A program made the position numbers and the translations under genes. 59,009 nt of DNA, taken from contig JADZEY010000018.1 in NCBI GenBank assembly GCA_020850315.1, positions 1-59,009 of the forward strand. Direction: 5' to 3'. This DNA is from Armatimonadota bacterium. GTDB taxonomy: Bacteria > Bacteroidota > Ignavibacteria > OLB7. The first letter of the stretch is position 1. The number at the start of each line of letters is the position of its first letter. The notes beneath the pieces were generated by a model, which did not search any database, was not told the origin of the DNA, and saw only the letters and a list, made by a program, of their open reading frames with translations. Below, piece after piece: positions 36,198-58,449 of this stretch.

Positions 36198-39100
36198 TCA
36201 CCGCATCACCACCAACTTCTCAATAACCTCCTGCGTTGCGCTGCCGTCGCCGATGCGGACGCGGTAGTAATAGACCCCGTTGGCAAGGCGGTCGCCGTCG
36301 GCATCAAGCCCGTCCCACTCCACTTTGTTGAACCCAGTTTTCAGCCGGGCCGGGTCAATCGGGATTGTTTTCACTTTTCGTCCGCTTACCGTGAAGATTC
36401 CAATCTCCCCTTCGGTTGGCTGCTGCTCGCCACCAATCATAAACGTGAACGTTGTCTTGTTGGGAAATGGATTCGGCACGTTGGCAACTTGCCGAACGGT
36501 CAAGTTTTGCTCAACGTAGAAAATGATGATGTCGCTCTCCTGCTTGTTCCCTGTTGCATCGGTCAGCACCACTTTCATGGAGTGCTCCCCCGGCAGAAGT
36601 TTTTCCGACGGAGTGTAGAATAGGCTTGCCCGGTGGTTATCCCCCGTTTTGGCGAAGGTCTCCCAGCGTGTTCCGGTTTTTCGGGCATCAATTTTATCAA
36701 TGTCAAGGTAGATCACCACCGATGTCACGCTATCCAGCTTCAGGATTGAGTTATCGAACAGCCGCACCTCGAACTCAGGAATTGGCCGCACAATATCACC
36801 ATCAATCAAGCGGTTCCGGTCGGCATAAATAGTGAGTTCGGGCTGCGTGGAGTCAATCCCAATGCGGAGGCTGGCGCGTTGCAGATTGTTTTGCGTGTAC
36901 GGCTCGGCGGGAAGATCGCTTGGATTGACAACGGCAGTGAACTGCTGCTCCTTTTTCAGTTTGTCGGTGGCAATCCGCAGCCCCGTCACGGCGGAATCCA
37001 ACGGAGCCAAGTTGCTAACCCAGATAGAGTCTTCAAGGCTGGTCCCGCTTTCCAACTGCCGCCACAACATCACCGGAACGTTGTTGGCCGGATACTTCCG
37101 CGAGAGGTTCACCATGCTTGCGCTGGCAACCGCCGGAAACCCTTGCAACACCGAGTCGGGGGCGATGCGGAAGGTGGATGGTGTGATCGCAAGCTCGGGG
37201 GAGGGATCGAACGTCACGGCAATCGAACGCAACCGCTGCGTGCTATCCTGGCCGAAATTGGCGGCGGCTTCCAATCGGGGATAGAGTGCGACGTTGACCC
37301 CGGAAAGGTCAATGGATGATTGATCGGAGCGGATCAGCGTGTCGCGGCGGCCATCGCGGCGCAGGCCGTAGATCACGGTCTGCACCGGCGGCCCGGCAAC
37401 ATCCACCACCGCCGATTGCCAAGCCGTGGCCGGCCCAACCGTTGGGAACGCCACGCTTCCGCGCGGAACCAGCACCAACGTGTCTATCAACGTCAGCCGG
37501 TACGGCGGTTTCACCCCTGCTTTCCGGAGCGAATCGGTGTTGCTCCAGAGTTCCCGAACCTCGGTTGCGGGGATTCCCTTCCCCCCAATCATCACAAACG
37601 ATTCTTCGTTCAAGAATCGCCCCGCAACGCGGCTTCCCAACAGCCCCAACGCCTCGCGAAGGAAATCGCTGTGGCCCTGGTCGAAGGCTTTGTCGTACTG
37701 CTGGTGGCTGAAGGCAACCATCACAAGTTGCCCCGGCTGCACGGTGTCGCGCACGAAGTCGCGGAAGTTGCGGAACGTCTCGCGGTTGGCGTTAAAATCA
37801 TACACCCGCTTGGCACTGGGGGTGATGCTGTTCGGCGGAAGCACCAGAACATGGACTCCATCCAGCGGCAAGGGTGCGTAATTAATCCCTGGATTTCCCC
37901 CGATTCTCATCTCCACAATTTTGGTATCGGGAACGCGGGTGTTTTCATCAATGAAGGTCTGTCCAACGGAGTAGAGTGTGATGGGGATGGGAAGGAGCGC
38001 AGGGCCAATGCCGCGCTCGTCAACCACCACGTCGGAAATCTGCGACTCCTGAAGCTGATTCTTTCCGCGAATGATGAACTCCGCCGGGCCAGCGGGCTGC
38101 ACCGTGAACGACTCAATCAACGGGAAAAGCGCGGCGGCGGCGGTGTCGCCGGTGGATGAGTACGCACGCCACCAATAAGTGCTTGCCCCGCGGTGGCTTT
38201 GCGGAATGCTGAAACTCCATGTTGTGGTTAGTTCCTGAAGCTCCATTGTTCCAACATCACTGTTGGTGAACGGAGTTTGGAACAGCGGCGTGGTATCAAC
38301 GGCAATGATTGCGCCGGGGCCGCTGGGTGGGTTCAGCAGCCGGATCACCACGCTGTCGGGGCTGGGGACACGCCCGTAGGGGAGCGGCTCGATCGGCAAC
38401 GGCTGGCTTCCGCGAATCCGCAGGCGAAGGGTCAGCAGGTTGTCGTCGCGGTAGGATTCGGTGAATTTTTTCTCGGGGTCAATCTCAATCCGAATCGTGT
38501 ACTCCCCCGGCTTCCCGGTGATCGGCAACGTCAGAACAGCATCGGTGAAATAGCAGATCCCATCCAGCGGAAGCGTCACCCGCTGCTCACTTCCCAGGCG
38601 GTCAACAATCGTAGCGGCCACCGTCACCGCCGAATCAGGGTTTCCGGTTGGTTGGATTGGCCTTCCGAAATCCCACAAACGCACCCGAACCTTCACCGCC
38701 GTGTCGCCAATGGTTGGCGTTTGATCCTGCATATTGGTGATGGTCACGGTATTACTCTGCTCGCGGACGGCTAACTCCGGCGTGCTGCGCGAAGCAAGCT
38801 GCATGGCGGGGTCGCCAAGAAGGCAGTACATCAGCAGGTGGTTGCGCTGCCTGACGGCCCCCAAGTACCAGAAGTCCGTCACATCGCCAACAGCATCGGC
38901 AAACATCTCCCATTTAACATCGGTCAGGACTTGGCCAATTGTTCGCTGATACTGTGCGGTAATGTGGGAAACGAAGCCTTGTTTTAGATGTTGATCAATG
39001 TCAGTGTAGCTGAAACTGGTCCCGCCAATGGCGGCCACCGCGCCGGTGTGCGAGGTGACAAACCGCTCGTTCCGGTTCACCAAACCTGGTTCGGCGTAGG

Positions 39101-42100
39101 CCCCAGTTTGGCAGGAGTAGGTGGTCAGGACAAAGTAGCGGTTGCCAACGCTCAGGTCTTCGGGATAGCCGAAATTGAGGTCGAAGATATCCACCGCGCC
39201 GTGGCCACTGAACGTCACCCACAAGGTTCCTTGATTGATTTCCGAACGTGTCCAGTCAGCATCAAGATCATCGGGGAAGGCTAATCGGTTTTCGGGTGAG
39301 GTCCGCACCACCATTCCGGTATCGCCGCAAAATTCTGGGGCAAGCACGTAGGTGGTGGCAATCTGCTCGTGAAGCTCTTTGAAGCGGTCACGCTGGTTGG
39401 CATCGCCACCGCCTGCCAAGAAGACAAACCGTTTGTTCCAAGCATCGGGAGGAAGGTTTTCGTACTCAATGACTTTCCGCACCATGTTGTCGGCCTCGGC
39501 AGAAGTTCGCACGGGGAACCGCCCAATGTAGTAATCAGAGGCTTGCGAGGTGTCGCCAATTTTGATTGTCAGCAGGTAATCGCTCACCGGAATTCCCAGG
39601 CTTGGGATGTAATCAATCATCGTGGAATTATCAGCCTTGAACATCGGATCCCACGAAGCATCCCCCACCAGAAGAACGTACAGCGGCTTCGGCTGTGCCC
39701 ACGACTGGCTGGCGTAATGAAGAAACCGCCGAATGGCATACCCCGATTTAATGCCGTCGTTGAACTCATCATACACCGTCTCGACATCCACCACCCGCAC
39801 GTTCAACCCACTCCGTTGGCGGCGGTAGTTGGCAAGCTCCTCGCTGGCCTGGCGGAAGGCTTTGTGGGTGATGATAATCATATCAGCCTGGTTGGTTTCG
39901 GCAACCAACTCATCCTTGGGATGCCAACGGAGCAGCGGCGTTTTTGGGGAGTCGAAGATGAACTCCTCCCCCGCTTCCCCAACCAGTGTGGCGGTTGCTT
40001 GCCACGTCAGCCCCGGGAAGGTGCTGTTCTCTGGCATTGGGAAAAAGGCGTTGAAAGTGATGCCACGATTGTTGTCGAAGTCAGTTTTCATGAACTCCTG
40101 CGCCGATGCCGAATTCCCTTTGATTGCCACAAAGGACCAAGCGGTACTGGTCATGTCGTACCGTTCGATGTTGCGGCTTCCCAACGATTTGAACGCCGTG
40201 CGCAGAGCGTCGGAGAACTCGTTGCTGTACCCGCCGCCGCTGGAAAACCCTGCAACAATGAAGTTCCCATCCCTAACAGCGTTCAGGAATTCCACGGCAC
40301 GTTGGTACTCAGCTTGCGACTTCCCACCATCAAACGTCTGGAACCAAGAGCGGCGCAGAATTGTGCCGTTGTTCGCGTCAACCTCGGCGATATGCAGCCC
40401 CTGTTCCCAGGAAGCTGACCCAACGGAACTATCGCCATACTCCGCACGCCATTGCAGGTTAATCCGTTCGGGCCCCGGAAAGTGGCGGGAGGTAAACCGG
40501 AACAGCACCCCGCGCTGTGGGTTGGTGATGGCCGCCCTCCCCTTTGCCGATGCCGCCACGGTTGGTGGGTTGCTGAACCCGCCAACCACAACGCGAATTG
40601 GTTGCCCCGATTCAGAAATTTTCACCCTCGCGCTCCCACCAGATGATGCTGGCAGCCATGCCCCGCTGATCTCGAAATAGTCAATTTTCACCGAGTTGGG
40701 AATCGCTCCCGGAGGGCGGCCAGGCTCAACCCGCAGCACATTACGCCCATTAAACAGATAGCTGGAAGGGATGGAAAAACGGAACGTGACATCGCCGGTA
40801 TCGTTGGTAAGCACGGTATCGGCAACGGTGGAATATGCGTTCAGCACAAACTTCAACGGGTGATCGGTGAAGTTGATTCCGGCAAGGCGGATGCTGAGTG
40901 TGACGCGACCGTCGTGTTGGTAGTAGGGGAAGCAGGTGAAAGGGAACTCAATCCACCCTCCGTCGCGGATGTAGGTGGCATCGCTCCAGTACCACCGCTC
41001 GTTCTGCACACGCTCATTCACATGCAGCGTGAACTCGTCACTTCCATTGACGTTCATCCCGCCGAAATACTCCTTATCCTGCTCGAAATGGAGTGTGGAG
41101 TCAACCGATTGAAGTTGCTGGGAAGCATTGGTGGCAGCGATGGCTTGGACCCGTGGTTGCTCCGTGCCGCTGCCATCCCAGCGTAGCAGGTAGGCGTTGG
41201 TGTCGGTGGTTTGGTCGAAGTAGAAACCTTCGGGGGATTGGTTACGGCGTGCGGTGAACTCAATGCGGTCGTCGGGATCGAACTGGCCGTTGCTGCCACG
41301 GTCGTCCACAAACATCGGGACACTTGCCGTGCGGTTCCACAACCGAAGATCGGCAATGCTTTTGCCGATAACGCTGTGCCCCCCAGCAGCAGCAACTTCG
41401 GCACCGGTGATGGAATAGACCCCATCGGTTGGTGTCAGCAGAACCATCGCCTCCCCCATCCCACCGGTAATCGTTACGGCAGCTTGCAGCGCCGCACCTT
41501 GCTTGGTTGATTGATTCGTTGGCCACCCGCCACGCCAGCGTTTGGCTTGCTGGAAGTTCAGCACGGTTTGCGCCAGCGTCCGCTCGTAGTCGGGGTTCTC
41601 GCGGTACTCTCCCGCTTGCTTCCCCACCCCTCCGGTTCTGCGCCAAGTGATGGCAAACGTCAGGTTTGGCTCAACTATCAATCGGTTCCCTTCGGCACGT
41701 AGGGGACGAAGAATCACCTCCATCATCCGCACTCCACGTTTCACGTATGGCGTTCCAAGCTGGGCGCGTTGGGATTCATGCTTCAGGAAAGGGAGCGGCG
41801 CGGGAAGCAGGAGCGTATCGCGCTGGCCAGCAGGGCTGGGAAGTATCTGCAGATCAACCGCATCGAACGGAATCGCGACCGTGACACGCACCCCCGGCAG
41901 GCGGCTGCTATCGCCCGGAAGAAGGTTTGCAAACGCGTTGTGAGCCACCGCCACACTGTTCCCCTGCTTGCTGACGATTGCCCGAAGATTCGCCAGCTGC
42001 GCAGTGATTCCGGAATCGTCGGCACGCAGCAATCGAACAGCCCCTTGCGTTGGCTGCGGCTGCTGGGCAATCGCATGATTGCCAATACCCCCGGCCGATA

Positions 42101-42143
42101 AAAGGAGAGCAATGAAAAGGGAACGGAACAGCAGTTGTGCCAT
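36198..42143 (-). CDS. porU: PorU-like C25-family cysteine peptidase with C-terminal sorting domain
   Basis: A very large exported protease of about 1981 residues. The signal peptide is residues 1-25 (LLFRSLFIALLLSAGG...AIAQ). An N-terminal region resembles PorU (PYVKRGVRMMEVILRPLR). The gingipain (C25) fold spans about 740-1130 with ADMIIITHKAF, VLLVGDASWDP, the catalytic histidine in FSGHGAVD (about 979) and cysteine in TTYSCQTGAY (about 1010). Several beta-sandwich segments and a final FlgD-like T9SS domain follow (NVPNPFPNKTTF; NGVYYYRVRI). PorU is the T9SS sortase that removes cargo signals and attaches LPS; a gingipain-like cargo protease is the alternative. The ATG at 42143 gives the signal peptide and avoids overlap with the ligase gene 65 nt upstream. 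It is last in the polysaccharide gene run. Confidence 0.8.
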   Translation of the reverse strand: MAQLLFRSLFIALLLSAGGIGNHAIAQQPQPTQGAVRLLRADDSGITAQLANLRAIVSKQGNSVAVAHNAFANLLPGDSSRLPGVRVTVAIPFDAVDLQILPSPAGQRDTLLLPAPLPFLKHESQRAQLGTPYVKRGVRMMEVILRPLRAEGNRLIVEPNLTFAITWRRTGGVGKQAGEYRENPDYERTLAQTVLNFQQAKRWRGGWPTNQSTKQGAALQAAVTITGGMGEAMVLLTPTDGVYSITGAEVAAAGGHSVIGKSIADLRLWNRTASVPMFVDDRGSNGQFDPDDRIEFTARRNQSPEGFYFDQTTDTNAYLLRWDGSGTEQPRVQAIAATNASQQLQSVDSTLHFEQDKEYFGGMNVNGSDEFTLHVNERVQNERWYWSDATYIRDGGWIEFPFTCFPYYQHDGRVTLSIRLAGINFTDHPLKFVLNAYSTVADTVLTNDTGDVTFRFSIPSSYLFNGRNVLRVEPGRPPGAIPNSVKIDYFEISGAWLPASSGGSARVKISESGQPIRVVVGGFSNPPTVAASAKGRAAITNPQRGVLFRFTSRHFPGPERINLQWRAEYGDSSVGSASWEQGLHIAEVDANNGTILRRSWFQTFDGGKSQAEYQRAVEFLNAVRDGNFIVAGFSSGGGYSNEFSDALRTAFKSLGSRNIERYDMTSTAWSFVAIKGNSASAQEFMKTDFDNNRGITFNAFFPMPENSTFPGLTWQATATLVGEAGEEFIFDSPKTPLLRWHPKDELVAETNQADMIIITHKAFRQASEELANYRRQRSGLNVRVVDVETVYDEFNDGIKSGYAIRRFLHYASQSWAQPKPLYVLLVGDASWDPMFKADNSTMIDYIPSLGIPVSDYLLTIKIGDTSQASDYYIGRFPVRTSAEADNMVRKVIEYENLPPDAWNKRFVFLAGGGDANQRDRFKELHEQIATTYVLAPEFCGDTGMVVRTSPENRLAFPDDLDADWTRSEINQGTLWVTFSGHGAVDIFDLNFGYPEDLSVGNRYFVLTTYSCQTGAYAEPGLVNRNERFVTSHTGAVAAIGGTSFSYTDIDQHLKQGFVSHITAQYQRTIGQVLTDVKWEMFADAVGDVTDFWYLGAVRQRNHLLMYCLLGDPAMQLASRSTPELAVREQSNTVTITNMQDQTPTIGDTAVKVRVRLWDFGRPIQPTGNPDSAVTVAATIVDRLGSEQRVTLPLDGICYFTDAVLTLPITGKPGEYTIRIEIDPEKKFTESYRDDNLLTLRLRIRGSQPLPIEPLPYGRVPSPDSVVIRLLNPPSGPGAIIAVDTTPLFQTPFTNSDVGTMELQELTTTWSFSIPQSHRGASTYWWRAYSSTGDTAAAALFPLIESFTVQPAGPAEFIIRGKNQLQESQISDVVVDERGIGPALLPIPITLYSVGQTFIDENTRVPDTKIVEMRIGGNPGINYAPLPLDGVHVLVLPPNSITPSAKRVYDFNANRETFRNFRDFVRDTVQPGQLVMVAFSHQQYDKAFDQGHSDFLREALGLLGSRVAGRFLNEESFVMIGGKGIPATEVRELWSNTDSLRKAGVKPPYRLTLIDTLVLVPRGSVAFPTVGPATAWQSAVVDVAGPPVQTVIYGLRRDGRRDTLIRSDQSSIDLSGVNVALYPRLEAAANFGQDSTQRLRSIAVTFDPSPELAITPSTFRIAPDSVLQGFPAVASASMVNLSRKYPANNVPVMLWRQLESGTSLEDSIWVSNLAPLDSAVTGLRIATDKLKKEQQFTAVVNPSDLPAEPYTQNNLQRASLRIGIDSTQPELTIYADRNRLIDGDIVRPIPEFEVRLFDNSILKLDSVTSVVIYLDIDKIDARKTGTRWETFAKTGDNHRASLFYTPSEKLLPGEHSMKVVLTDATGNKQESDIIIFYVEQNLTVRQVANVPNPFPNKTTFTFMIGGEQQPTEGEIGIFTVSGRKVKTIPIDPARLKTGFNKVEWDGLDADGDRLANGVYYYRVRIGDGSATQEVIEKLVVMR

Positions 42144-42208
42144 AATTGAAACGCTTGCTACAGTTGAAATCAGGTCGCCCCGAAGATGCAGTATTCGCCA
42201 CACGAAAG

Positions 42209-43591
42209 TCAAGCCCCTAAAACGGTAACACCGTTGCCAGTCGAGCTTGGAGCCTGAAGATAGTGGCCCGACAAATTTTTGCGCGGCTTCCACGCGCCTG
42301 GAAGGTAGGAGGTCATCACCATCACAAAGGGGTACAGTTGCTGAAGGCGTTCGGCAAACACGGGGGTGAACAGACCCGAAAAAATCAGGATAAGAGTGCT
42401 GGAATAAAGCCACAAAGCAACAAAGCGGTGGAACGGACGGGTAGCGGTTTTCACGGTGCGGCGGTGCATGGCAACCATTGCAACCAGCACCCAACCCCAC
42501 GCAAACAAGCCAGCAATTCCGCCACGAAGCCACACGTACAAGTAAGCGTTGTGCGGAACCAGTTCGCTGATGTTCTCATACTCCAGAATTGTGTAGTTCT
42601 TGATCTTCTCCCCAAATGGATAGCCATACCACGGATTTTCCGCCAACATATTGGCAAGGTTGTACACCTCCAACGCACGATATGCCGCGGATCCATCCTT
42701 CCCCGGTTCGGCAATGCTGGAGACCCGCTCTACAAAATTCCCTATTCCAATTCCTAAAATTCCTACAACGAAGAGAAGTACGCTGGCAGCAATCACCCCT
42801 TTTGCGGCGCGGCGTTCGTTTCGGTTCATGGCAATCACCAGCACCGCCACAGCAATAATCACCCCAATTAAATAGCTACGACGAAGGCACATAACGAACA
42901 TGATTCCGGTAAACGGAAGCGCGCAAAGCAGAAAGGTTCGTATTCGCCGGTAGTAAGGGTCGTTGCTCGGTTTCACAGCGTAGGAAACGATAGCCCCCAC
43001 CACCATTAACGCAAGGATCATGGCATCCCCCCAGCCAGTAAGCAATCCCCATAACACACCAACATTAAGGTATATGGTGGAAGCCTCGATGGTTTTATAG
43101 ACTCCGCCGGCAATAATTATCCACACCATTAAATAAAGGTCGTCCGGCTCGAACACCAGCAACCACATAAAAAAGCAAAACACGGTCATCGGCACAGCGA
43201 ACATCTCCCACGAGAAACGGAAGCCTTGCTCAACAACAAACATTCGGATCATGGGGATCAGCCCACAGAAGATACTGAGAGCAATCATCGGTCTTGATAA
43301 CGAGCTTCGATAGATGGTCAGATGCCCACGCATCAATCGGCGAAGAACACCGAAAATGGGAATTGAGAAAAGTATGACATCCAACAACCCGAACCGCCCA
43401 CCAACCCAGGGATCAAAAATAGAAAGGACAAAAGGGGAGAAATTATCGGGGCGGGTTTCGTAATGGAGAATAAATACTGTTAGCAGAATAATGACTATTC
43501 CGCAAGGATCGCCAGCATGGTACAACCATCGCTGTAACGGCGGCCACGACGGCCATAACGATTGGGGAAATGTAGTCCGTTCGGTTTGCAT
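42209..43591 (-). CDS. O-antigen ligase/polymerase family membrane protein (Wzy/WaaL-like)
   Basis: A 460-residue polytopic inner-membrane protein with about ten to twelve hydrophobic helices. A large periplasmic loop at about 290-370 contains ALEVYNLANMLAENPWYGYPFG and ELVPHNAYLYVWLRGG; the NPWYG and PHN motifs are the hallmark of the Wzy_C/O-antigen ligase family. It polymerises glycan repeats or ligates them to lipid A core; which is not decidable. The ATG at 43591 is 11 nt from the glycosyltransferase stop, so co-transcribed. The PorU-like gene follows 65 nt downstream. Confidence 0.88.
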   Translation of the reverse strand: MQTERTTFPQSLWPSWPPLQRWLYHAGDPCGIVIILLTVFILHYETRPDNFSPFVLSIFDPWVGGRFGLLDVILFSIPIFGVLRRLMRGHLTIYRSSLSRPMIALSIFCGLIPMIRMFVVEQGFRFSWEMFAVPMTVFCFFMWLLVFEPDDLYLMVWIIIAGGVYKTIEASTIYLNVGVLWGLLTGWGDAMILALMVVGAIVSYAVKPSNDPYYRRIRTFLLCALPFTGIMFVMCLRRSYLIGVIIAVAVLVIAMNRNERRAAKGVIAASVLLFVVGILGIGIGNFVERVSSIAEPGKDGSAAYRALEVYNLANMLAENPWYGYPFGEKIKNYTILEYENISELVPHNAYLYVWLRGGIAGLFAWGWVLVAMVAMHRRTVKTATRPFHRFVALWLYSSTLILIFSGLFTPVFAERLQQLYPFVMVMTSYLPGAWKPRKNLSGHYLQAPSSTGNGVTVLGA

Positions 43592-43602
43592 TGTTGGAGG
43601 AT

Positions 43603-44811
43603 TTAGCGAAGGTCGCGCCCCGTTAGCTGCTCCAGAGTCTGGATTATTGCATCAGCAAATGTGTCCATACTGAATCGGCGTTTGGCGCGTACTCTCCCCC
43701 GTTGGCATTGTTGTTCGCGGGTGTCTGGGTCATCCAAAAAATGGAGCATTTTTTCCAGCAGATCATCTACATCTCCGGCCTGAAAAATATATCCAGCATC
43801 CCCAATCACATCTGGAATTCCCCCGCTGTTGCTGGCAATAATTGGCGTTCCGGCAAGCATTGCCTCAACATTCACCCGCCCAAATTGTTCGTCAATTTCG
43901 GTGCGGCTGGGAAGCACCATCGCATCGGCAGCGGCGATATAATATGGCATATCCTCCTGTGGGACCACATCGCGAAAATCCACCCCCGAAAGCTGAATAG
44001 CTTGTTGGCGCAATTCCGACTCATACTCCCCCCTTCCCACAATTAGCAATCGGACGGCTTGGTTGGGACGTTGCTGCTGCAATCGGGCAAACGCTTCAAT
44101 AAGATCCTGGACACCTTTTAACTCCACTAGTCGTCCGGCAAACAGGAATATCACCTCACTATTACTCTCGCCATTATTCAAACCAAGTTTTGCTCGGGCA
44201 TCCTGTTTGTTAATCTCCACAAACAGGGTATCGTTCACGCCATAAAACTGCTCGATAATCTGCCCCTGAAATCCAAGTTCTTGCAGTGCTGCAACCGCCT
44301 TGCTGTTGATGCAAAATGCAGCCGTCATCCGTGGGATCATCACCCGTGACAACAGGCTGTAGAGTGATCCCAGCCGATAGGCAAACGTTCTGAAGGAGGC
44401 GATGTGGTTATTATAAAAGATGATCGGGACACGGGGGGCCAGCAGCCAGCGCACAATCATAATTTGCAAAGCAAAAAAAGAGAAACCTTCCTCCAGCATC
44501 AGAATTATTTCTGGTCGCGAGTGCCGAAAAGCACGAATCAACCCTGTTAAATAAAATCCACGTTGCGCTTGACCTTTTGCTGCAACCTTCCCCAAAACAA
44601 CGGGAAACGAATCTGCTTCAGAAGATTGGTAAGTGATTAATCGGTCATTTTCAATCCAAGCGGTTGGTGCTAACAGGGTAATTGCAACATTAGCGCGCTC
44701 GGCAACCAAATAATGCCGCCAACGCACCGAGCGAAGCACCGAAACTTTATCAATGACCAAAACCCGCAACGGTGGCTCCAGCATTTGATCTGCCGACAAT
44801 ATCTCTGACAT
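43603..44811 (-). CDS. Glycosyltransferase family 4 (GT-B fold)
   Basis: A 402-residue cytoplasmic glycosyltransferase. The C-terminal Rossmann half shows FLFAGRLVELKGVQDLIEAF (about 222-241), RLLIVGRGEYE, and the donor-binding EQFGRVNVEAMLAGTPIIAS (E-x7-E at about 317-325), then SGGIPDVIGDAGY. It adds one sugar to a lipid-linked glycan; donor and acceptor are unknown. It overlaps tightly: 3 nt after the Wzz-like stop, 11 nt before the ligase/polymerase start. The start is the ATG at 44811. Confidence 0.92.
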   Translation of the reverse strand: MSEILSADQMLEPPLRVLVIDKVSVLRSVRWRHYLVAERANVAITLLAPTAWIENDRLITYQSSEADSFPVVLGKVAAKGQAQRGFYLTGLIRAFRHSRPEIILMLEEGFSFFALQIMIVRWLLAPRVPIIFYNNHIASFRTFAYRLGSLYSLLSRVMIPRMTAAFCINSKAVAALQELGFQGQIIEQFYGVNDTLFVEINKQDARAKLGLNNGESNSEVIFLFAGRLVELKGVQDLIEAFARLQQQRPNQAVRLLIVGRGEYESELRQQAIQLSGVDFRDVVPQEDMPYYIAAADAMVLPSRTEIDEQFGRVNVEAMLAGTPIIASNSGGIPDVIGDAGYIFQAGDVDDLLEKMLHFLDDPDTREQQCQRGRVRAKRRFSMDTFADAIIQTLEQLTGRDLR

Positions 44812-44814
44812 GAT

Positions 44815-46068
44815 TTATTCGTTGCTTCCTACATCAATCTGCTGGCGGTTTATGGCTATCTGTTGTTGTTTAGAATAGATACCGCGCTGCAATCCATCAT
44901 AGAGGTACACCCCCAACACAGAACAAACAACCAATAAAATTCCACTAACACTAACAATTATTGTTTTACGTGGAGCTGATGGGCGAAATGGAGTAGCCGC
45001 CCAATCCAACACCGCAACCGTGGGCAATTCCCGCGCTTCCTGGATTTGCTCTTGGTTATATTGTGCCTCCAACAGCATATACACCTGTGTTGAAACTTCA
45101 AGATTTAATTTTAGTGTAGCATACTGGCGTGCAAGCGCTGGAACATTTTTAAACGGTATCCCCAAAGCATCAACATCGCTTTTTCCTGTTTCTACATTCT
45201 GCTGTTGGCGTTGCAGCAATGCTAATTGCGAGCGCAGTGATTGGACTGTGCGCTGATCTGAATTCAAGTCCGATTCGGCACGAACAAGCTCTAATTTTGC
45301 TTTTTGAATCATCGCTTGGGTTTCGATCACCGAGCTAAGCGCGGCATCTAACTGTTTATCCAATGCAATCGCTTTATTCTGCTCCTGGAACAGTTGCATA
45401 GCACGCTGTGCGGAATCCATTTCTTTCCGCTTTTCCTCTTTCATTTTTTCTAAAAAAATGCGTGAGCGGCGTGCGCGTGTAACGCTTTTTTGTTGGTTCA
45501 GCTTGTCAAGAATATCAATGGCATTGTTGACGATAGCAGCAGTAAACACAGCCACTTCTTGCTGTTCGGTTTTGTCCGACAGAAACGATGTTTTTTCGCT
45601 ATAAGCAACTGATATTACACCTTGTTTATCTGATTCGGCTTCGATTCCCCCCATCACTTGTTCGATTGCCAGCGAACGGTTCGTTGAATCAACATCATAC
45701 CGCTGTAGCAAATTTAGTCGAGTTACTAGACTATCGGCCAGTGATCGGCTGGTCAAGATTTTCACAAACACCTCAGCCGATGAATTCTGACCAAGCGATT
45801 TCAAATCGAACCCCGAACCGCCGCCAAGAAGTAGATTATTTAGGGACATTCCTTCCGATTTCTCGGGGGGCAGCAACACGGCTTCAGCCGTAAACGTTTT
45901 GGGCATGATAAATGAATAAACAACTACCACAACAAGCCCTGTAATAATAATTGTTAGAAGCAGAGAGCGATAGCGGAGTAGAACTGCGAAATAATCACGC
46001 AGGTCCATGAGGGGAGGTGGAGCAGAATGTTCGGACACGTGGATAGAAGATTGTTTTGGGTTGGTCAC
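44815..46068 (-). CDS. Wzz/Wzc-type chain-length or polysaccharide co-polymerase protein
   Basis: A 417-residue inner-membrane protein with two membrane helices (about 33-54, LLLTIIITGLVVVVVYSFIM; about 372-395, TIIVSVSGILLVVCSVLGVY) flanking a long periplasmic region. The Wzz motif PKTFTAEAVLLPPEK (about 55-69) follows helix 1. Predicted coiled coil covers about 190-290 (KMKEEKRKEMDSAQRAMQLF). The proline-rich LDWAATPFRPSAPRK before helix 2 is typical. There is no C-terminal tyrosine kinase. It regulates glycan chain length with the Wzy-like enzyme. The start is GTG at 46068, 22 nt after the Wza-like stop. Confidence 0.9.
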   Translation of the reverse strand: MTNPKQSSIHVSEHSAPPPLMDLRDYFAVLLRYRSLLLTIIITGLVVVVVYSFIMPKTFTAEAVLLPPEKSEGMSLNNLLLGGGSGFDLKSLGQNSSAEVFVKILTSRSLADSLVTRLNLLQRYDVDSTNRSLAIEQVMGGIEAESDKQGVISVAYSEKTSFLSDKTEQQEVAVFTAAIVNNAIDILDKLNQQKSVTRARRSRIFLEKMKEEKRKEMDSAQRAMQLFQEQNKAIALDKQLDAALSSVIETQAMIQKAKLELVRAESDLNSDQRTVQSLRSQLALLQRQQQNVETGKSDVDALGIPFKNVPALARQYATLKLNLEVSTQVYMLLEAQYNQEQIQEARELPTVAVLDWAATPFRPSAPRKTIIVSVSGILLVVCSVLGVYLYDGLQRGIYSKQQQIAINRQQIDVGSNE

Positions 46069-46090
46069 GGTAATGTTGCTGAGTAATGTC

Positions 46091-47770
46091 TTAGTTATTT
46101 TTGTTATTTAGCAAACCAACCACCACAGCAATCACCGTGGCAACCTGTGCAACAATAGTAATTGCAGTAGCGAACCCTGACCAAAAATCTCCTTTCGCTT
46201 GTTCGGGTACAAAAATTGCATCACCCGATTCAATGTTATAATCTTCTTCACTGTCGGCAAGGAATGTTTCTCCGGTTCTTCCCTTTATCACTTTTTCCTC
46301 CCCTTCCTCAGCGTTCCAGCCGTAGCCGCCAGCAAGGTGGATGTAGTCACGGAAGGTGCGGCCAGAAACGTAGGATATATTTCCTGGGTTTTTCACTTTT
46401 CCGCTGACTTTCACAAAACCACGGGTTAGCGGGACAAAAATTGAATCATCATGCTGAAGGAATAGATTTTCGGATTCATCGTTGTTCATCAGCTTATTAA
46501 AATCTACGGTAAGGATTCCCGGACGCTGAAATTCGCGATTTTTTACGCGAAAATACTCTGTCTCCTCGGGCGTGCGTTGGTCGGGGTCAATCTGGGCGAT
46601 GCGGCCATATTCTGGGTCCTGCTCAATTAACCGCCGACGAATTAAAACGGCATCCGCAAGGGATGCCTGGTCGGTGAAACCGCCGGCACGTTGGATAATT
46701 TCGCGCAGCCGTGTCGAGCGTGGTTCGATGGAGTAATACCCGGGATATCTCACCTCACCCCACACCACCACCCTGCTTGGGGTGTGATATCCCTTTTTCT
46801 GGCGAACAAACACTTGATCCCCGATTTCTAACGGCTGATTGCCGATCACTTGGCCATCGGCCGTGGCGCGCAAGAACAAGCGCTGACGGATATTGCCAAC
46901 CTCATCCACTTTCACCACTTCAATGGAGTCCATCACAGCGTCCACAGTGAACCCGAACCCGTAACGAATCAGGCTTGAGACGGAGTCCCCTTCATGCCAT
47001 GTGAACTCGCCAGGGCGCTGCACACCGCCGGTGATGATGATGATATTGCGCTGATCTTGAACCCCAATTTTCACCACATCCCCCCCTTCCACTGTGGGGT
47101 TTGCTGATAGGTCGCCGCTGGCATAAAACGGAACAAGATCAACGGGGATGCTGTGGCCATTGCGCACAATTTGGATATCGCGTTTGGAGGCACGTGTGCT
47201 TGCCCCGCCGGCCAGATCAATCACCTCCGAAACCCTTGTTACTGGCGTGGCAACAACCATTCCGGTGCGCCGAACGGCCCCGATGACCGACACTTTGAAC
47301 TGCCGCATTCGTCGCAACGACACCGCCGCCATGGGGTCGCGATAGACCCGTGCAATCGCTTGCTGGATCAGCACCTCCGATTCGGCAAGCGAACGGTTGC
47401 GAACATCAACCACGCCAACGCCGGGAATTATCAGTTTGCCATCGGGGGCAACCACTAACTCATATTGGACTGGTTTGGAGAGGGTGAGCATCACGGTCAA
47501 CTGGTCGTTCGGGCCAAGCTGGTAGCGTTCGGGGTCAATTGGGCGTTCCAGCAGCACGCTTGATTCAAGGCTGCGCTGGCTTAGTTCGCGGGTAAGGGTG
47601 GTGTCGAATGGGGTGGATTGGCCAGTGGTTCCAAGCCCACGTGGCTCTTCACCAGTTGATGGTTGGGAATACCCCAAAACCGGTGTACACAACCAAAGCA
47701 AAACAGCAAACCCAGCCACAACCCATTGGTGGCGTTGTGGCAACCGTGATAACAGCAGTTGATGTTTCAG
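46091..47770 (-). CDS. Wza-like polysaccharide export outer-membrane protein (SLBB domains)
   Basis: An exporter of about 559 residues. A Poly_export domain opens the mature part (YQLGPNDQLTVMLTLSKPVQ, then APDGKLIIPGVGVVDVRNRS), followed by several SLBB domains (FKVSVIGAVRRTGMV; IIITGGVQRPGEFTW; RVVVWGEVRYPGYYS; KVSGKVKNPGNISYV) and a C-terminal hydrophobic helix (AITIVAQVATVIAVVVGLL). There is no ATG: the best start is CTG at 47770 with a perfect AGGAGG 7 nt upstream (47778-47783), giving KHQLLLSRLPQRHQWVVAGF and a normal signal peptide. A TTG nine codons later is the alternative. It is first in the polysaccharide/PorU run. Confidence 0.85.
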   Translation of the reverse strand: MKHQLLLSRLPQRHQWVVAGFAVLLWLCTPVLGYSQPSTGEEPRGLGTTGQSTPFDTTLTRELSQRSLESSVLLERPIDPERYQLGPNDQLTVMLTLSKPVQYELVVAPDGKLIIPGVGVVDVRNRSLAESEVLIQQAIARVYRDPMAAVSLRRMRQFKVSVIGAVRRTGMVVATPVTRVSEVIDLAGGASTRASKRDIQIVRNGHSIPVDLVPFYASGDLSANPTVEGGDVVKIGVQDQRNIIIITGGVQRPGEFTWHEGDSVSSLIRYGFGFTVDAVMDSIEVVKVDEVGNIRQRLFLRATADGQVIGNQPLEIGDQVFVRQKKGYHTPSRVVVWGEVRYPGYYSIEPRSTRLREIIQRAGGFTDQASLADAVLIRRRLIEQDPEYGRIAQIDPDQRTPEETEYFRVKNREFQRPGILTVDFNKLMNNDESENLFLQHDDSIFVPLTRGFVKVSGKVKNPGNISYVSGRTFRDYIHLAGGYGWNAEEGEEKVIKGRTGETFLADSEEDYNIESGDAIFVPEQAKGDFWSGFATAITIVAQVATVIAVVVGLLNNKNN

Positions 47771-51124: not shown

Positions 51125-52351
51125 TTACTCCGCAGAGCTGTGGTATTCAATGCCCCGCAGCAATTCTTCTTCGGCATCGGTCATGGCCACGTTTCGGCGC
51201 AGCATCACGGTTCGGGCGGTTTGGATTGCTTTGTTGCGGTCGTATTCTTCGCTCCCCCCGCTTCCCCCCCAAGCAAAAGATGAGATGAACTTTGGCGGAA
51301 ACCCTCCACCAAAAATGTTGGCCCCAACGCCGATCACTGTTCCGGTGTTCAGCATGGTGTTGATCCCGGTCTTGCTGTGGTCGCCAATCAGCGAGCCAAG
51401 GAACATTGTGCCGCTGTTCACCCCACCCCACGGGAAGGTGACGCGAACTTGGCCGTAGTTGTTCTTTAAATCGGAAGTGTTGGTGTCGGCCCCCAGGTTC
51501 ACCCATTCCCCCAAGTAGCTGTGCCCCAGGAATCCATCATGCTGCTTGTTGCTGAACCCCAGAATGATGGAGCCTTCCACCTCGCCCCCGATTTTGCACC
51601 AGGAGCCAATGGAGGTTTTCTCGTAGATCTTCGCGCCAATTTTAATGGTGCTGTTATCCCCAATAAAACATGGCCCCACCACCACTGCGTTGGCCATCAC
51701 CTTCACGTTGTTTCCAAAAACGATTGCCCCACCGCTGGCATCCAACACCACACCGGGTTGAATGCTGCACCCTTCCCCAACAATGATGTTCGCCGGGTTC
51801 ACCACATGCGCGCCAGCCATGTCCGGAAGTGTGCTGGAAGCTAATCCGGCGGCATCTTCCATCAGCATCCGTGCGTTGTCTTCTACCAACTCCCACAAGT
51901 AGCTGTACAACTTCAGCGTATCAGTTTTTATGATGGTAAGCCCAAGCCCTTCCCATTGATCGGGCGTGGAAGAAACCAGAAGGTGGGCGGGAATGGCGGA
52001 AGCGCGGGCGGCAAGAAGGTGAGTTCCATCGGTCAATATCCATCCACCGGGCTGGCTGTCAGGTTGACTGTTCAGGGGGAGGTGGTTCAGCAGATTGCTA
52101 TGCCAGCGGAGCCGGGCGTTCAGGTAGAGGGTGTCGGTGGTTGATTCTGGTTGGTGAATCGCATGGCCGTGGCTTTGCAGCACACGCTCGATTGGCTCCC
52201 TTCCCATCCAAGTAATCGCCGCCATGTTGGGAATCGCGCCAACCCGTTGGCACAGCGGTTTTGTGCCAACCAACAGTTGCGCCGGGTGGTGGGTTAGCGA
52301 CAGCGGATACAGATTGCCGACGTGCTGGTCTTCAAACAGGCAAAGGAGCAT
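51125..52351 (-). CDS. GlmU-like sugar nucleotidyltransferase/acetyltransferase (alternative Bacteroidota type)
   Basis: A 408-residue protein. The N-terminal half (MLLCLFEDQHVGNLYPLSLT) is the degenerate nucleotidyltransferase of the alternative bacterial GlmU group. The C-terminal half is a left-handed beta-helix with hexapeptide repeats (VVLDASGGAIVFGNNVKVMA, VVVGPCFIGDNSTIKIGAKI). The segment GEVEGSIILGFSNKQHDGFLGHSYLG resembles the acetyltransferase active region. GlmU makes UDP-GlcNAc for peptidoglycan and LPS. The ATG at 52351 is chosen because the extended frame runs through the tRNA-Ser gene and its terminator. Confidence 0.88.
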   Translation of the reverse strand: MLLCLFEDQHVGNLYPLSLTHHPAQLLVGTKPLCQRVGAIPNMAAITWMGREPIERVLQSHGHAIHQPESTTDTLYLNARLRWHSNLLNHLPLNSQPDSQPGGWILTDGTHLLAARASAIPAHLLVSSTPDQWEGLGLTIIKTDTLKLYSYLWELVEDNARMLMEDAAGLASSTLPDMAGAHVVNPANIIVGEGCSIQPGVVLDASGGAIVFGNNVKVMANAVVVGPCFIGDNSTIKIGAKIYEKTSIGSWCKIGGEVEGSIILGFSNKQHDGFLGHSYLGEWVNLGADTNTSDLKNNYGQVRVTFPWGGVNSGTMFLGSLIGDHSKTGINTMLNTGTVIGVGANIFGGGFPPKFISSFAWGGSGGSEEYDRNKAIQTARTVMLRRNVAMTDAEEELLRGIEYHSSAE

Positions 52352-52386
52352 AAGCTGAGGGAAGAAAAACGTGAGCGAATGCCATT

Positions 52387-52428
52387 GAAAAAAACAAGCG
52401 CGGCGACGTTCGGACATCACCGCGCTTG
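52387..52428 (-). terminator. Terminator after tRNA-Ser
   Basis: On the minus strand CAAGCGCGG (complement of 52420-52428) pairs with CCGCGCTTG (complement of 52395-52403) and is followed by TTTTTTT (52388-52394). It lies 10 bp beyond tRNA-Ser and before the GlmU-like start, separating the two. Confidence 0.8.
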
Positions 52429-52437
52429 CGTGTTCAG

Positions 52438-52526
52438 CGGAAAGGGAGGGATTCGAACCCTCGGTACGGTTTGCGCCGTACAAACGCTTTCCAGGCGTTC
52501 CAGTTCAACCACTCCTGCACCTTTCC
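52438..52526 (-). tRNA. tRNA-Ser (GGA anticodon)
   Basis: An 89-nt class II tRNA. The acceptor stem is GGAAAGG (5' end 52526) with CCTTTCC, then discriminator G at 52438. The anticodon loop CTGGAAA gives anticodon GGA (codons UCC/UCU). A long variable arm (TACGGCGCAAACCGTA) marks the serine class. The T-arm is GGGTTCGAATCCC. CCA is not encoded. Confidence 0.96.
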
Positions 52527-54722: not shown

Positions 54723-54829
54723 GTGTGGTTTACAACTCCACATATTCCCCACTAGAAACAAGTGCGTATTTGGGGGGCATCCCCTATCTTGGGCGCACCC
54801 AATTTGAGTATCCTATCAACCAGCAATTC

Positions 54830-55894
54830 ATGCGTAAACATCTCTGCACGGCTCTCCTGTTGGCAGCAGTATTTCAGCAATCGGCATTGGGGCAAGGGTT
54901 TGCCAACGCCAAGTATGCCAGCGAATTTTTATCGCTTGGCGTGGGGGCGCGCTCGGCAGCATTGGGTGGAGCCGGAACAGGGTTCACCGATGATGTCACG
55001 GCGGGGTACTTCAACCCTGCGGCATTGTCGTTGGTGAACTATCCACAGATCGCAATCTTCCACGAGTCGCGGTTTGGCGGGCTTTCCAACTACGACTACG
55101 CCGCCGCCACGCTCCCCATTGCCTTCAACCAAACCGTTGCGCTCAGCGCGTTCCGAATTGGCTACGGCGATGACATTAAGGACACACGCGGCGCGCTGAT
55201 TGACCAAAACGGCAACGGCGTGATTGACGAAGAAGACCGACTTGATGAAACCAAAATCAAGTATGGCAGCGCGTCCGATTGGGCGTTCTTTGGTTCCTAC
55301 TCACGGAAGATTGATGAGAAGCTATCGGTTGGCGGAAGCCTGAAAGTACTGCATCGGGCTGTGCTGGACAACACCGCCTGGGGCTTGGGGTTCGATATCG
55401 CTGCCAGCTACAAACCCGTTGAAAACCTTACCGTTGGCGCGGTGCTTGCCGATGCCACAAAGTCAATCCTGACGTGGGACACGGGAAATCAGGAGTTTAT
55501 CGTTCCCGCGCTTCGCCTGGGTGGGGCATACTTGCTGAAGCTGCATGAAAACCATTCGGTGATGCCAGTGGTGGATGGAACGTTCCGATTTGAAGGCCGC
55601 CACGAAACTGCGCAAGCCGACTTGGGAGTCGCCAGCCTTGATGCTAAAGTTGGGCTTGAGTACTCGTTTAAAAACCGTTTCTACCTTCGCGGCGGGTTCA
55701 ATGAAATTGAACAACTCAGCATCGGTGCGGGGATCCGGCTGCCCAAGCTGAACATTGATTATGCTTTCACGAACGCAGGAACAGAACTAAGCGGCTTTGG
55801 GGCCACCCACCGCATCTCGTTGATGCTTACTATAGAGGAAGCCAAATATCTGCGCCCAGCGGTTCCAGCAGTGGGCGAACCGCTCGATCACTAA
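54830..55894 (+). CDS. porV: PorV/PorQ-family outer-membrane beta-barrel protein
   Basis: A 354-residue outer-membrane protein. The signal peptide is residues 1-22 (LCTALLLAAVFQQSALGQ). The family opening is FLSLGVGARSAALGGAGTGF (about 37-56), then YFNPAALSLV. Regular amphipathic strands follow to the end. PorV shuttles T9SS cargo from the translocon to PorU; PorQ and the wider UPF0164 group are alternatives. A loop DQNGNGVIDEED (about 123-134) looks like a calcium-binding EF-hand/dockerin loop and is unusual for a barrel. The ATG at 54830 gives the signal peptide; longer starts do not. The T9SS cargo gene at 56005 follows on the same strand. Confidence 0.83.
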   Translation: MRKHLCTALLLAAVFQQSALGQGFANAKYASEFLSLGVGARSAALGGAGTGFTDDVTAGYFNPAALSLVNYPQIAIFHESRFGGLSNYDYAAATLPIAFNQTVALSAFRIGYGDDIKDTRGALIDQNGNGVIDEEDRLDETKIKYGSASDWAFFGSYSRKIDEKLSVGGSLKVLHRAVLDNTAWGLGFDIAASYKPVENLTVGAVLADATKSILTWDTGNQEFIVPALRLGGAYLLKLHENHSVMPVVDGTFRFEGRHETAQADLGVASLDAKVGLEYSFKNRFYLRGGFNEIEQLSIGAGIRLPKLNIDYAFTNAGTELSGFGATHRISLMLTIEEAKYLRPAVPAVGEPLDH

Positions 55895-56004: not shown

Positions 56005-58449
56005 ATGCACCTTGCTTCAGCCTACCTTCCGGCACTGATTGCCCGGATGATTCCAGCGGTGTTGATGCTCGGTTGGGCACTCCAACTTCAAGCACAGCTT
56101 CCGCAATCGCAAACCGACACCAGCCGGCGCTGGATGATGATGAACCTGAACCAGTCCAGCGGGCTTGAGAACGATCTTGAGGAGCCGCAGTCCATCTTCT
56201 TCAGCTCCCCACAAGTTGGCTACTACGACCAGAAGTACGGGACCACCAATGGCGGCCAAACTTGGACGCGGCTTCCCAACATCGTGCCGGTTCCCCACAC
56301 AATGATGAACCCCACCTTCGGCATCAGCCCCAGCGGCTTCATCACAACCGATGGCGGAACAAATTGGGTTCCAATTCGCCCATCATTCACCGATTTTTCC
56401 AAGAACTACCGTGTGGTGGCGGCGCAAGCGTTCAGCCAGCAATCAATGGTGGTGCTTTACCGCTCGCATGAGGTTGATGGTGCAACCGGTGAGATCTACC
56501 CCGTTGGCCCCACGCGGCTTGCCTTCACGCTCAATGGCGGGAACGTGTGGAAGTTTGCCGACTCGGTCATCACCATCTCCGACCGATTGGAAGATTCCAC
56601 ATTTTTCGGTGAACTACCGATTCCAAACGGGCTTGCGCCAGTGTTCGCCAATGAGTGGTGGGGGCTTGGAGCCATGAGCGATTCCATCACAGCCAACGTT
56701 ATCACCAATGCATATGGCCGGTTCAACAACCAGCTCACCAATTTCTACTACCTGCTGCAGCTGAACCTAAAAACGGGAAAGATCACCGCAACAAACCTGA
56801 TGCCGATAGGGGATCAAGTTCCGCCGCTTTCTAGCTTGCCAGCAAACGTGCAATACATCAACCCCCAAGTACTCTACAGCTTTGCCTCGCGCCAGCCAAA
56901 CACAGCGGTCAACTACTATCAACTCCGCTCAATCAACGGCGGGAAAAACTGGGACTCACTCCCCTCCCCCGACTGGTTGGATTACGGGACCTTCCGTTTT
57001 ATCACCCCAACGCTTGGCGTGGCCTCGAACGGCATCACCACCGACGGCGGAATGAACTGGAAACGCTGGGCACACCCCTACGGCCAAACGCAATTCTACG
57101 CGCTGGACTCCGCCCACTACTACATCGCCGGAAGTTTCTCACTGTTCGCTTCCTCCAGCGATGCCGGCCACACATGGAAACGGAACGGAGCCGGAGCATT
57201 CCCCCGCGCGGTGGCGGCAAACCGTGGGACAGTGCTGATTGGCCGCGACTACCGCAGCCTTCTGTTCAGCACCGACACCGGAAAAACCTGGACCGATGCT
57301 GGCCTAACTGGCGGCATTCCCGGCGACGTTAGCGCGATTTGGGACATCGCTTTTGTGGATACCTCCAACGCCCACGCTTTCGCGCTTGCAACGTTCATCA
57401 CCTACGATGCCGAAAGCTATTTGGGGATGTTGGAAACCGTTGATCGGGGAAAAACCTGGTTCCGTGGCCAACGCATCCCTGAGCTTGAGGGGACCGAAGC
57501 CTCGGCAGTGATGCAGTTCGTCTCCGATACCGATCCGGAGACTTCGGCGGAGGGAGCTTGGGGATTTATCGGAAGCATTTTTGGCCTGGTGGGGTCCAAC
57601 GATGGAGGGCGGAACTTCACTTCTCGGAACTCTGGGCTCCCCTTCCGCGACATCGCCATGTACGATTCGGCAACCGGGGTTGCAGCATCGGGCGATGGTC
57701 TGTACAAAACAAGCAATGGGGGAAGCGACTGGACAAAAGAGCAAGCCTTCAATCCCAACCGCGATGAACCGATTGGCCTAACGGCCATTCCGAACGTGGC
57801 CACCGGCCAAGTCACATACAAGGTCATTCTTCCCGATCCCACCAAAGATTATCAGCAATGGGATATCGCCACAAAAAATGGAACCGGAGCTTGGAGCGTT
57901 GGCGCAATGACCGGCGCACCACGCCCGCTTGACCGCAGCGCGTACTGGTTTGGCCCCGACACAGTGTTTGCCGTGGGAAAAGGGGCTACTGTGCAATTTT
58001 CTTCGACCGGTGGGAACAGCTTCACGCTGCTGCGTGACTCTACCGCGCAGTTCAACAACGTTGGCGGGTGGGTTGTGATGGATGGCGACGGCAGAAACCT
58101 TTACATCGCCGGAACCGGAAACACCGCCGCACGCTGGGGGGTCTATGCCGAACCAGTGATAACATCGGTCCCTTCCACTGGCGTTGGGCGGCAGTACGCA
58201 CGGCTTGCGGCCAACCCAGTCATCACCGGGCAAGCCCAGCTGATGCTTGCGGTTGACCAGCCTGAGGAGCTAACAGTAGAAGTGGTGGATATGCTTGGCA
58301 GCACACAACTGGCACAGCGGATGGCGATAGCTAATGCGGGCAATTTCACCCTTGTCATCAATCTTCGGGGGCTTTCCAGCGGGCAGTATTTGCTGCGGGT
58401 TTCGGGAAGCCGCGGCGTTCAGACGCTGCCGCTGATGGTGCTTCGGTGA
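56005..58449 (+). CDS. T9SS-sorted sialidase-like repeat protein (BNR/Asp-box)
   Basis: An 814-residue exported protein. The signal peptide is about residues 1-31 (ALIARMIPAVLMLGWALQLQAQ). The body carries repeated Asp-box/BNR-like units (TTNGGQTWTRL, TTDGGMNWKRW, STDTGKTWTDA, SNDGGRNFTSR, TSNGGSDWTKE), which form beta-propellers as in photosystem II stability factors and sialidases. The C-terminus is a type A sorting domain (VEVVDMLGSTQLAQRM, SGQYLLRVSGSRG). No catalytic sialidase residues are evident, so it is likely a surface-binding protein rather than an enzyme. It starts 110 bp after the PorV-like gene, on the same strand. Confidence 0.83.
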   Translation: MHLASAYLPALIARMIPAVLMLGWALQLQAQLPQSQTDTSRRWMMMNLNQSSGLENDLEEPQSIFFSSPQVGYYDQKYGTTNGGQTWTRLPNIVPVPHTMMNPTFGISPSGFITTDGGTNWVPIRPSFTDFSKNYRVVAAQAFSQQSMVVLYRSHEVDGATGEIYPVGPTRLAFTLNGGNVWKFADSVITISDRLEDSTFFGELPIPNGLAPVFANEWWGLGAMSDSITANVITNAYGRFNNQLTNFYYLLQLNLKTGKITATNLMPIGDQVPPLSSLPANVQYINPQVLYSFASRQPNTAVNYYQLRSINGGKNWDSLPSPDWLDYGTFRFITPTLGVASNGITTDGGMNWKRWAHPYGQTQFYALDSAHYYIAGSFSLFASSSDAGHTWKRNGAGAFPRAVAANRGTVLIGRDYRSLLFSTDTGKTWTDAGLTGGIPGDVSAIWDIAFVDTSNAHAFALATFITYDAESYLGMLETVDRGKTWFRGQRIPELEGTEASAVMQFVSDTDPETSAEGAWGFIGSIFGLVGSNDGGRNFTSRNSGLPFRDIAMYDSATGVAASGDGLYKTSNGGSDWTKEQAFNPNRDEPIGLTAIPNVATGQVTYKVILPDPTKDYQQWDIATKNGTGAWSVGAMTGAPRPLDRSAYWFGPDTVFAVGKGATVQFSSTGGNSFTLLRDSTAQFNNVGGWVVMDGDGRNLYIAGTGNTAARWGVYAEPVITSVPSTGVGRQYARLAANPVITGQAQLMLAVDQPEELTVEVVDMLGSTQLAQRMAIANAGNFTLVINLRGLSSGQYLLRVSGSRGVQTLPLMVLR

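Follow-up and report, generated by a model that had tools for sequence, protein, structure and literature searches.

Why should a gene for a PorU-like enzyme of the type IX secretion system (T9SS) close a run of polysaccharide polymerisation and export genes? The question is raised by a locus within a 59,009-nt stretch of DNA, the whole of which is called the window here. To our knowledge, the acceptor glycan of a T9SS sortase has been worked out in a few oral pathogens only. Operons pairing a sortase homologue with presumed glycan genes offer a direct route to acceptor glycans elsewhere and allow two anchoring systems to be tested side by side in one bacterium. In P. gingivalis, PorU cleaves off the CTD and moves the cargo to A-LPS via a linking sugar that bears an amino acid (PMC7468200), and PorZ delivers A-LPS to the sortase (PMC8545088). 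The locus consists of five genes:

46091–47770, minus strand: Wza-like outer-membrane polysaccharide export protein (Pfam Poly_export and SLBB), with a CTG start at 47770 behind GAGGAGG
44815–46068, minus strand: Wzz-like chain-length determinant (PF02706 and PF13807, Wzz/GNVR), with a GTG start
43603–44811, minus strand: GT4-type glycosyltransferase (PF00534, Glycos_transf_1, E 7.9e-36)
42209–43591, minus strand: Wzy_C O-antigen polymerase/ligase-like membrane protein (PF04932, E 3.1e-14) with about 10 hydrophobic segments
36198–42143, minus strand: PorU2-type protein of 1981 aa (Peptidase_C25, PF01364, E 1.9e-69), with its start (ATG) at 42143 and a signal peptide behind it

The preliminary description of the window had given this order, with gaps of 22, 3, 11 and 65 nt between consecutive genes; both proved exact, and Pfam backs each name. 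No terminator-like site was found at the junctions of the five genes by a scan whose overall yield was at shuffle level, and the five genes may be co-regulated, as judged from their spacing alone. With Wza, Wzz and Wzy all present, the locus has the make-up of a Wzx/Wzy-type export cluster. There is no Wzx flippase, initiating sugar transferase or sugar-nucleotide gene among the five; four PF02397 initiating transferases are encoded elsewhere in the genome, and a Wzx-like gene sits in a cluster on contig C10, so the initiating transferase and flippase for the glycan of this locus would come from other loci. Because the locus has Wza, an exported EPS- or capsule-like chain is as likely as LPS to be its product. 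The neighbouring SecA and EI24 genes were dropped as candidate parts of the unit, SecA not being near PorU2 in three related genomes (G001–G003). A GlmU-type UDP-GlcNAc pyrophosphorylase gene (51125–52483, minus strand; TIGR03991, 382 bits) lies about 3 kb upstream of the operon.

The order to which the bacterium belongs was represented by five genomes, G000 (that of the window) to G004, the last of them 95% complete and in 40 contigs. The five-gene order is kept in four of the five, that is, in every one that has a PorU2-type gene, and the run is beyond chance because it is conserved in three genomes besides that of the window. Thus, G001–G003 rule out a gene order peculiar to this one genome and bear out the conservation of gene order that the preliminary description had named as a check. 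In these three genomes, identity to the window's protein is 88, 44 and 42% for PorU2 and 91, 52 and 48% for Wza; Wzz and GT4 are conserved neighbours, Wzy_C has orthologues, and the Wzy and PorU2 genes of G002 and G003 stand at 36–44% identity. G004 has a canonical PorU and neither a long PorU2 nor orthologues of Wza (the best match, 28%, is in another cluster, one that the family shares) or Wzy. Within the order, the unit is either present or absent as a whole.

PF02563 has no match in the genome other than the Wza of the window. Contig C10 encodes another Wza-like protein, more distantly related, in a fuller Wza-Wzz-Wzx-GT cluster (L210, L211) that has a Wzy_C and an initiating transferase of its own; G000–G004 all share this Wza-like gene, and contig C10 yielded no C25 gene.

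The genome (4.24 Mb, 99.8% complete) encodes two C25 proteins. The canonical PorU is the one encoded on contig C24, with 779 bits to NF033707 against a cut-off of 420. The window protein reaches 254.9 bits on the same PorU model and 258.2 bits on the PorU2 model NF052324 (cut-off 450), so that by the curated cut-offs it is neither; two relatives in the class score 390–401 on NF052324. Hence the large protein is not the PorU of this genome. As NF052324 ('putative type IX secretion system sortase PorU2') is its best-scoring named family, it is classed here as a PorU2-type relative that falls short of the curated cut-off. The T9SS components SprA, PorV family and PorZ are also present, as are at least 150 T9SS CTDs, and presumably the canonical PorU serves the bulk of these cargo proteins.

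The earlier claim that the large protein is PorU-like holds for its architecture, which is not that of an ordinary protease. It comprises, in order, a signal peptide, a PorU N-domain, a FAM3/ILEI-like domain, the C25 domain, Ig domains, a second FAM3/ILEI-like domain, a CARDB-like domain, a pre-CTD region and a CTD. Three of these were delimited:

about residues 544–707: FAM3/ILEI-like domain 1
about residues 752–1122: C25 catalytic domain, with His981 and Cys1011
about residues 1384–1560: FAM3/ILEI-like domain 2

His981 and Cys1011, the C25 dyad, are invariant across the aligned set. The dyad, the N-terminal domain, the pre-CTD and the CTD are shared with P. gingivalis PorU (NF033707; 6ZA2), which acts at the cell surface and has glycans as acceptors, and the window protein is presumed to be alike in this. 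It exceeds the PorU of the same genome in length by about 600 aa and has two FAM3/ILEI domains and one CARDB domain that canonical PorU lacks; moreover, its gene is not beside PorV and closes a glycan operon, with a separate canonical PorU in the same genome.

The most serious alternative, which we nevertheless regard as unlikely, is that we are dealing with a C25 protease or adhesin bound at the surface and itself T9SS cargo, whose FAM3, CARDB and Ig domains either tether it to the polysaccharide of the operon or hold that polysaccharide down, with no joining of other proteins to glycan. It would account for the CTD-like tail (TIGR04183, 23.5 bits against a cut-off of 23) and for the adhesin-like Ig and CARDB domains, and in two AlphaFold2 models of the PorU2-type protein (pLDDT 84 and 87) the isolated C25 domain matches gingipain proteases at Z 40. 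Against it stand the PorU N-domain and the pre-CTD region, together with a sequence far nearer to PorU (6ZA2, E 4e-51) than to gingipains (gingipain R, E 7e-14). The profile of the window's family aligns to 6ZA2 over profile positions 214–941 and 1550–1765, covering the N-domain with C25 and the C-terminal region; a secreted protease of gingipain type would be closest to gingipains and have no PorU N-domain. Among the matches listed for the models, 6ZA2 is the only solved structure that covers both the N-domain and C25 (Z 20.9, rmsd 8.1, 576 residues), and the modelled C-terminal part also matches PorU.

The linkage to glycan genes was followed through the neighbourhoods of long C25 genes in 24 more genomes, picked by kinship and not by their neighbours, and on named contigs from a genome scan. 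In many Ignavibacteria, the PorU2-type gene closes a co-directional glycan cluster, often directly behind WecG; the linked clusters contain Wzx, GLF, GT2, GT4, GT9, a polymerase-like protein and WecG. Thus, the claim that a sortase-like gene ends a glycan run extends well past the window, since the linkage recurs across the class with different glycan genes. At nine loci (L038, L049, L055, L056, L058, L080, L105, L107 and L131), stop and start overlap by 4 nt (ATGA) with WecG or GT genes. In the paired comparison, made in the 23 genomes with a PorU2 as well as a canonical PorU, two or more of the five upstream genes are glycan genes for PorU2 in 16 genomes and for canonical PorU in none (McNemar p 3e-5). 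Counted over all upstream genes, the glycan share is 66/111 for PorU2 against 9/107 for canonical PorU, with 10/356 in random 20-kb stretches, the profiles for these counts having been seeded with proteins of the same loci and so being biased towards them. Because of this seeding, the upstream proteins were scanned independently with Pfam: 109 proteins upstream of PorU2 (a set without a few proteins of more than 1000 aa) include 21 GT4-type, 11 WecG, 7 GT2 and 6 GT9, and among 95 upstream of canonical PorU no glycan family occurs more than three times. In a C25 tree, whose support is moderate in places, linked genes fall into several clades with different glycan sets. The linkage has its bounds: in 10 of the 24 class genomes outside the window's family, the long C25 gene has no glycan gene ahead of it. 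No report of PorU-type genes in glycan operons was found (subscription papers and preprints lay outside the search), and searches for PorU2 or PorV2 by name and for Ignavibacterium with T9SS returned no relevant paper.

On the downstream side, a CTD is present in the first gene behind linked PorU2 in 7 of 41 cases against 15 of 356 random genes (p 0.015 for both downstream places); this is a weak excess only, and the idea that the cargo is encoded beside linked PorU2 was set aside. Five loci (L049, L087, L088, L121 and L139) have tandem pairs of PorU2-type genes closing one glycan cluster.

It could be argued that the linkage reflects only common expression or inheritance of surface genes, so that PorU2 would serve T9SS cargo at large, use the usual anchor and not have the neighbouring glycan as its substrate. 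We find this improbable: glycan neighbours are indeed missing from some PorU2 clades, and an acceptor of A-LPS type is not evidenced in the genome, but several PorU2 lineages have different glycan sets in the same upstream place, with 4-nt overlaps, and the canonical PorU of the same genomes has no such linkage. That PorU2 processes the export machinery or the chain itself (e.g., by maturation of a Wza/Wzi-like outer-membrane protein) and not T9SS cargo is very improbable, since, although it adjoins a Wza operon here and, in a single further clade (L135), a Wzi-like gene, neither Wza nor Wzi was detected in most linked clusters, and the CTD substrates of PorU-type C25 enzymes are processed outside the cell (PMC8545088).

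The likeliest reading, to which we give an even chance, is that the enzyme of this operon is a second T9SS transpeptidase, of PorU2 type, reserved for the glycan that its neighbours polymerise and export. The same pairing is found in many relatives with different sugar genes, so the PorU2-type enzyme probably acts on the sugar of its neighbours. Going by the gene families, GT4 and Wzy_C would build and polymerise the chain, Wzz would set its length, and Wza would export it. PorU2 would then reach the surface via Sec and T9SS and recognise the chain through its extra domains. Finally, the Cys/His dyad would cleave the CTD from a subset of cargo and join the C-terminus so exposed to a glycan amino group. 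The surface location, the transfer, the acceptor and the cargo subset are all suppositions of this scheme.

What the acceptor might be is constrained by one negative result. TIGR03019 is a VimA-related family (PMC7468200), and a search of G000, G001 and G003 with it gave no match at E <= 1e-5; nor were VimA-like genes seen adjoining PorU2. An amino-acid-bearing linking sugar of A-LPS type is thus not evidenced in this genome, and the acceptor chemistry must therefore be unlike that of A-LPS or rely on an enzyme not recognised as such. The suggestion in the preliminary description that the glycan made here anchors the cargo, known PorU chemistry being taken as the guide, is not supported as it was written.

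As for recognition of the chain, the extra domains offer a candidate. In the models, both FAM3-like domains have the fold of the POMGnT1 stem (Z 19.4, rmsd 2.2 over 146 residues, and Z 18.0, rmsd 2.7 over 148 residues). The POMGnT1 and FAM3C domains are carbohydrate-binding, and the POMGnT1-stem fold binds GlcNAc via Arg129, Asp179 and Arg207 (PMC9802357). This triad is lost from both domains in the window's family, which have QSS and DHE instead of RDR, so that GlcNAc binding by the window protein has no support at the level of residues. It is intact in 19 domains from 17 PorU2 loci of relatives, including KSB1 and several Ignavibacteria; for that reason, sugar reading is a fair inference for these relatives only. 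Fused FAM3/POMGnT1-like domains suggest how such an enzyme could read a glycan, and the fusion connects anchoring at the bacterial surface with a domain family of human glycosylation. PorZ brings the glycan to the sortase as a separate protein of a different family (PMC8545088), and FAM3-like domains might do so in cis. In the window, PorZ has its own gene (21939–24233, minus strand; NF052228, 302 bits against a cut-off of 260), some 12 kb past the PorU2-type gene.

A more general proposal, put forward tentatively, is that Ignavibacteria and their relatives possess a distinct class of T9SS sortases, each copy specific for its glycan cluster and equipped with FAM3-like glycan-reading domains, so that one cell could attach different cargo to different glycans through PorU and PorU2. 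Among the known systems close to it is the mainstream PorU2 of Bacteroidota, of which the Pontibacter copy tested (L100) also carries an ILEI domain; however, the mainstream genes lie behind a PorV2-like gene, whereas those of Ignavibacteria close glycan clusters. The exosortase/PEP-CTERM system (EpsH) is alike in gene logic, a protein-sorting transpeptidase being linked there with exopolysaccharide genes (PMC1569441), but exosortase is an unrelated inner-membrane enzyme with an unrelated signal and shows no homology. Exosortase genes beside VimA-like and glycan genes have been discussed by Veith et al.

The window also has a PorV2-like gene (54725–55894, plus strand), which scores 187 bits on NF052325 against a cut-off of 325 and above the cut-off on the PorV family, one of five PorV-family matches in the genome. 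It lies about 12 kb from the PorU2-type gene on the opposite strand, so the two are not adjacent, and neither are they in G001–G003. Directly behind it is a gene (56005–58449, plus strand) for an 814-aa protein with a T9SS CTD (match at 58213–58437). Other arrangements occur in the class. One PorU2-type clade has no glycan neighbours (L042, L043 and L060), a DNA polymerase III alpha gene following in L042. In several class genomes (L064–L067 and L073), the genes behind SecA are a PorU-like one that lacks the FAM3 module and a PorV2-like one, possibly a third arrangement of T9SS sortase genes.
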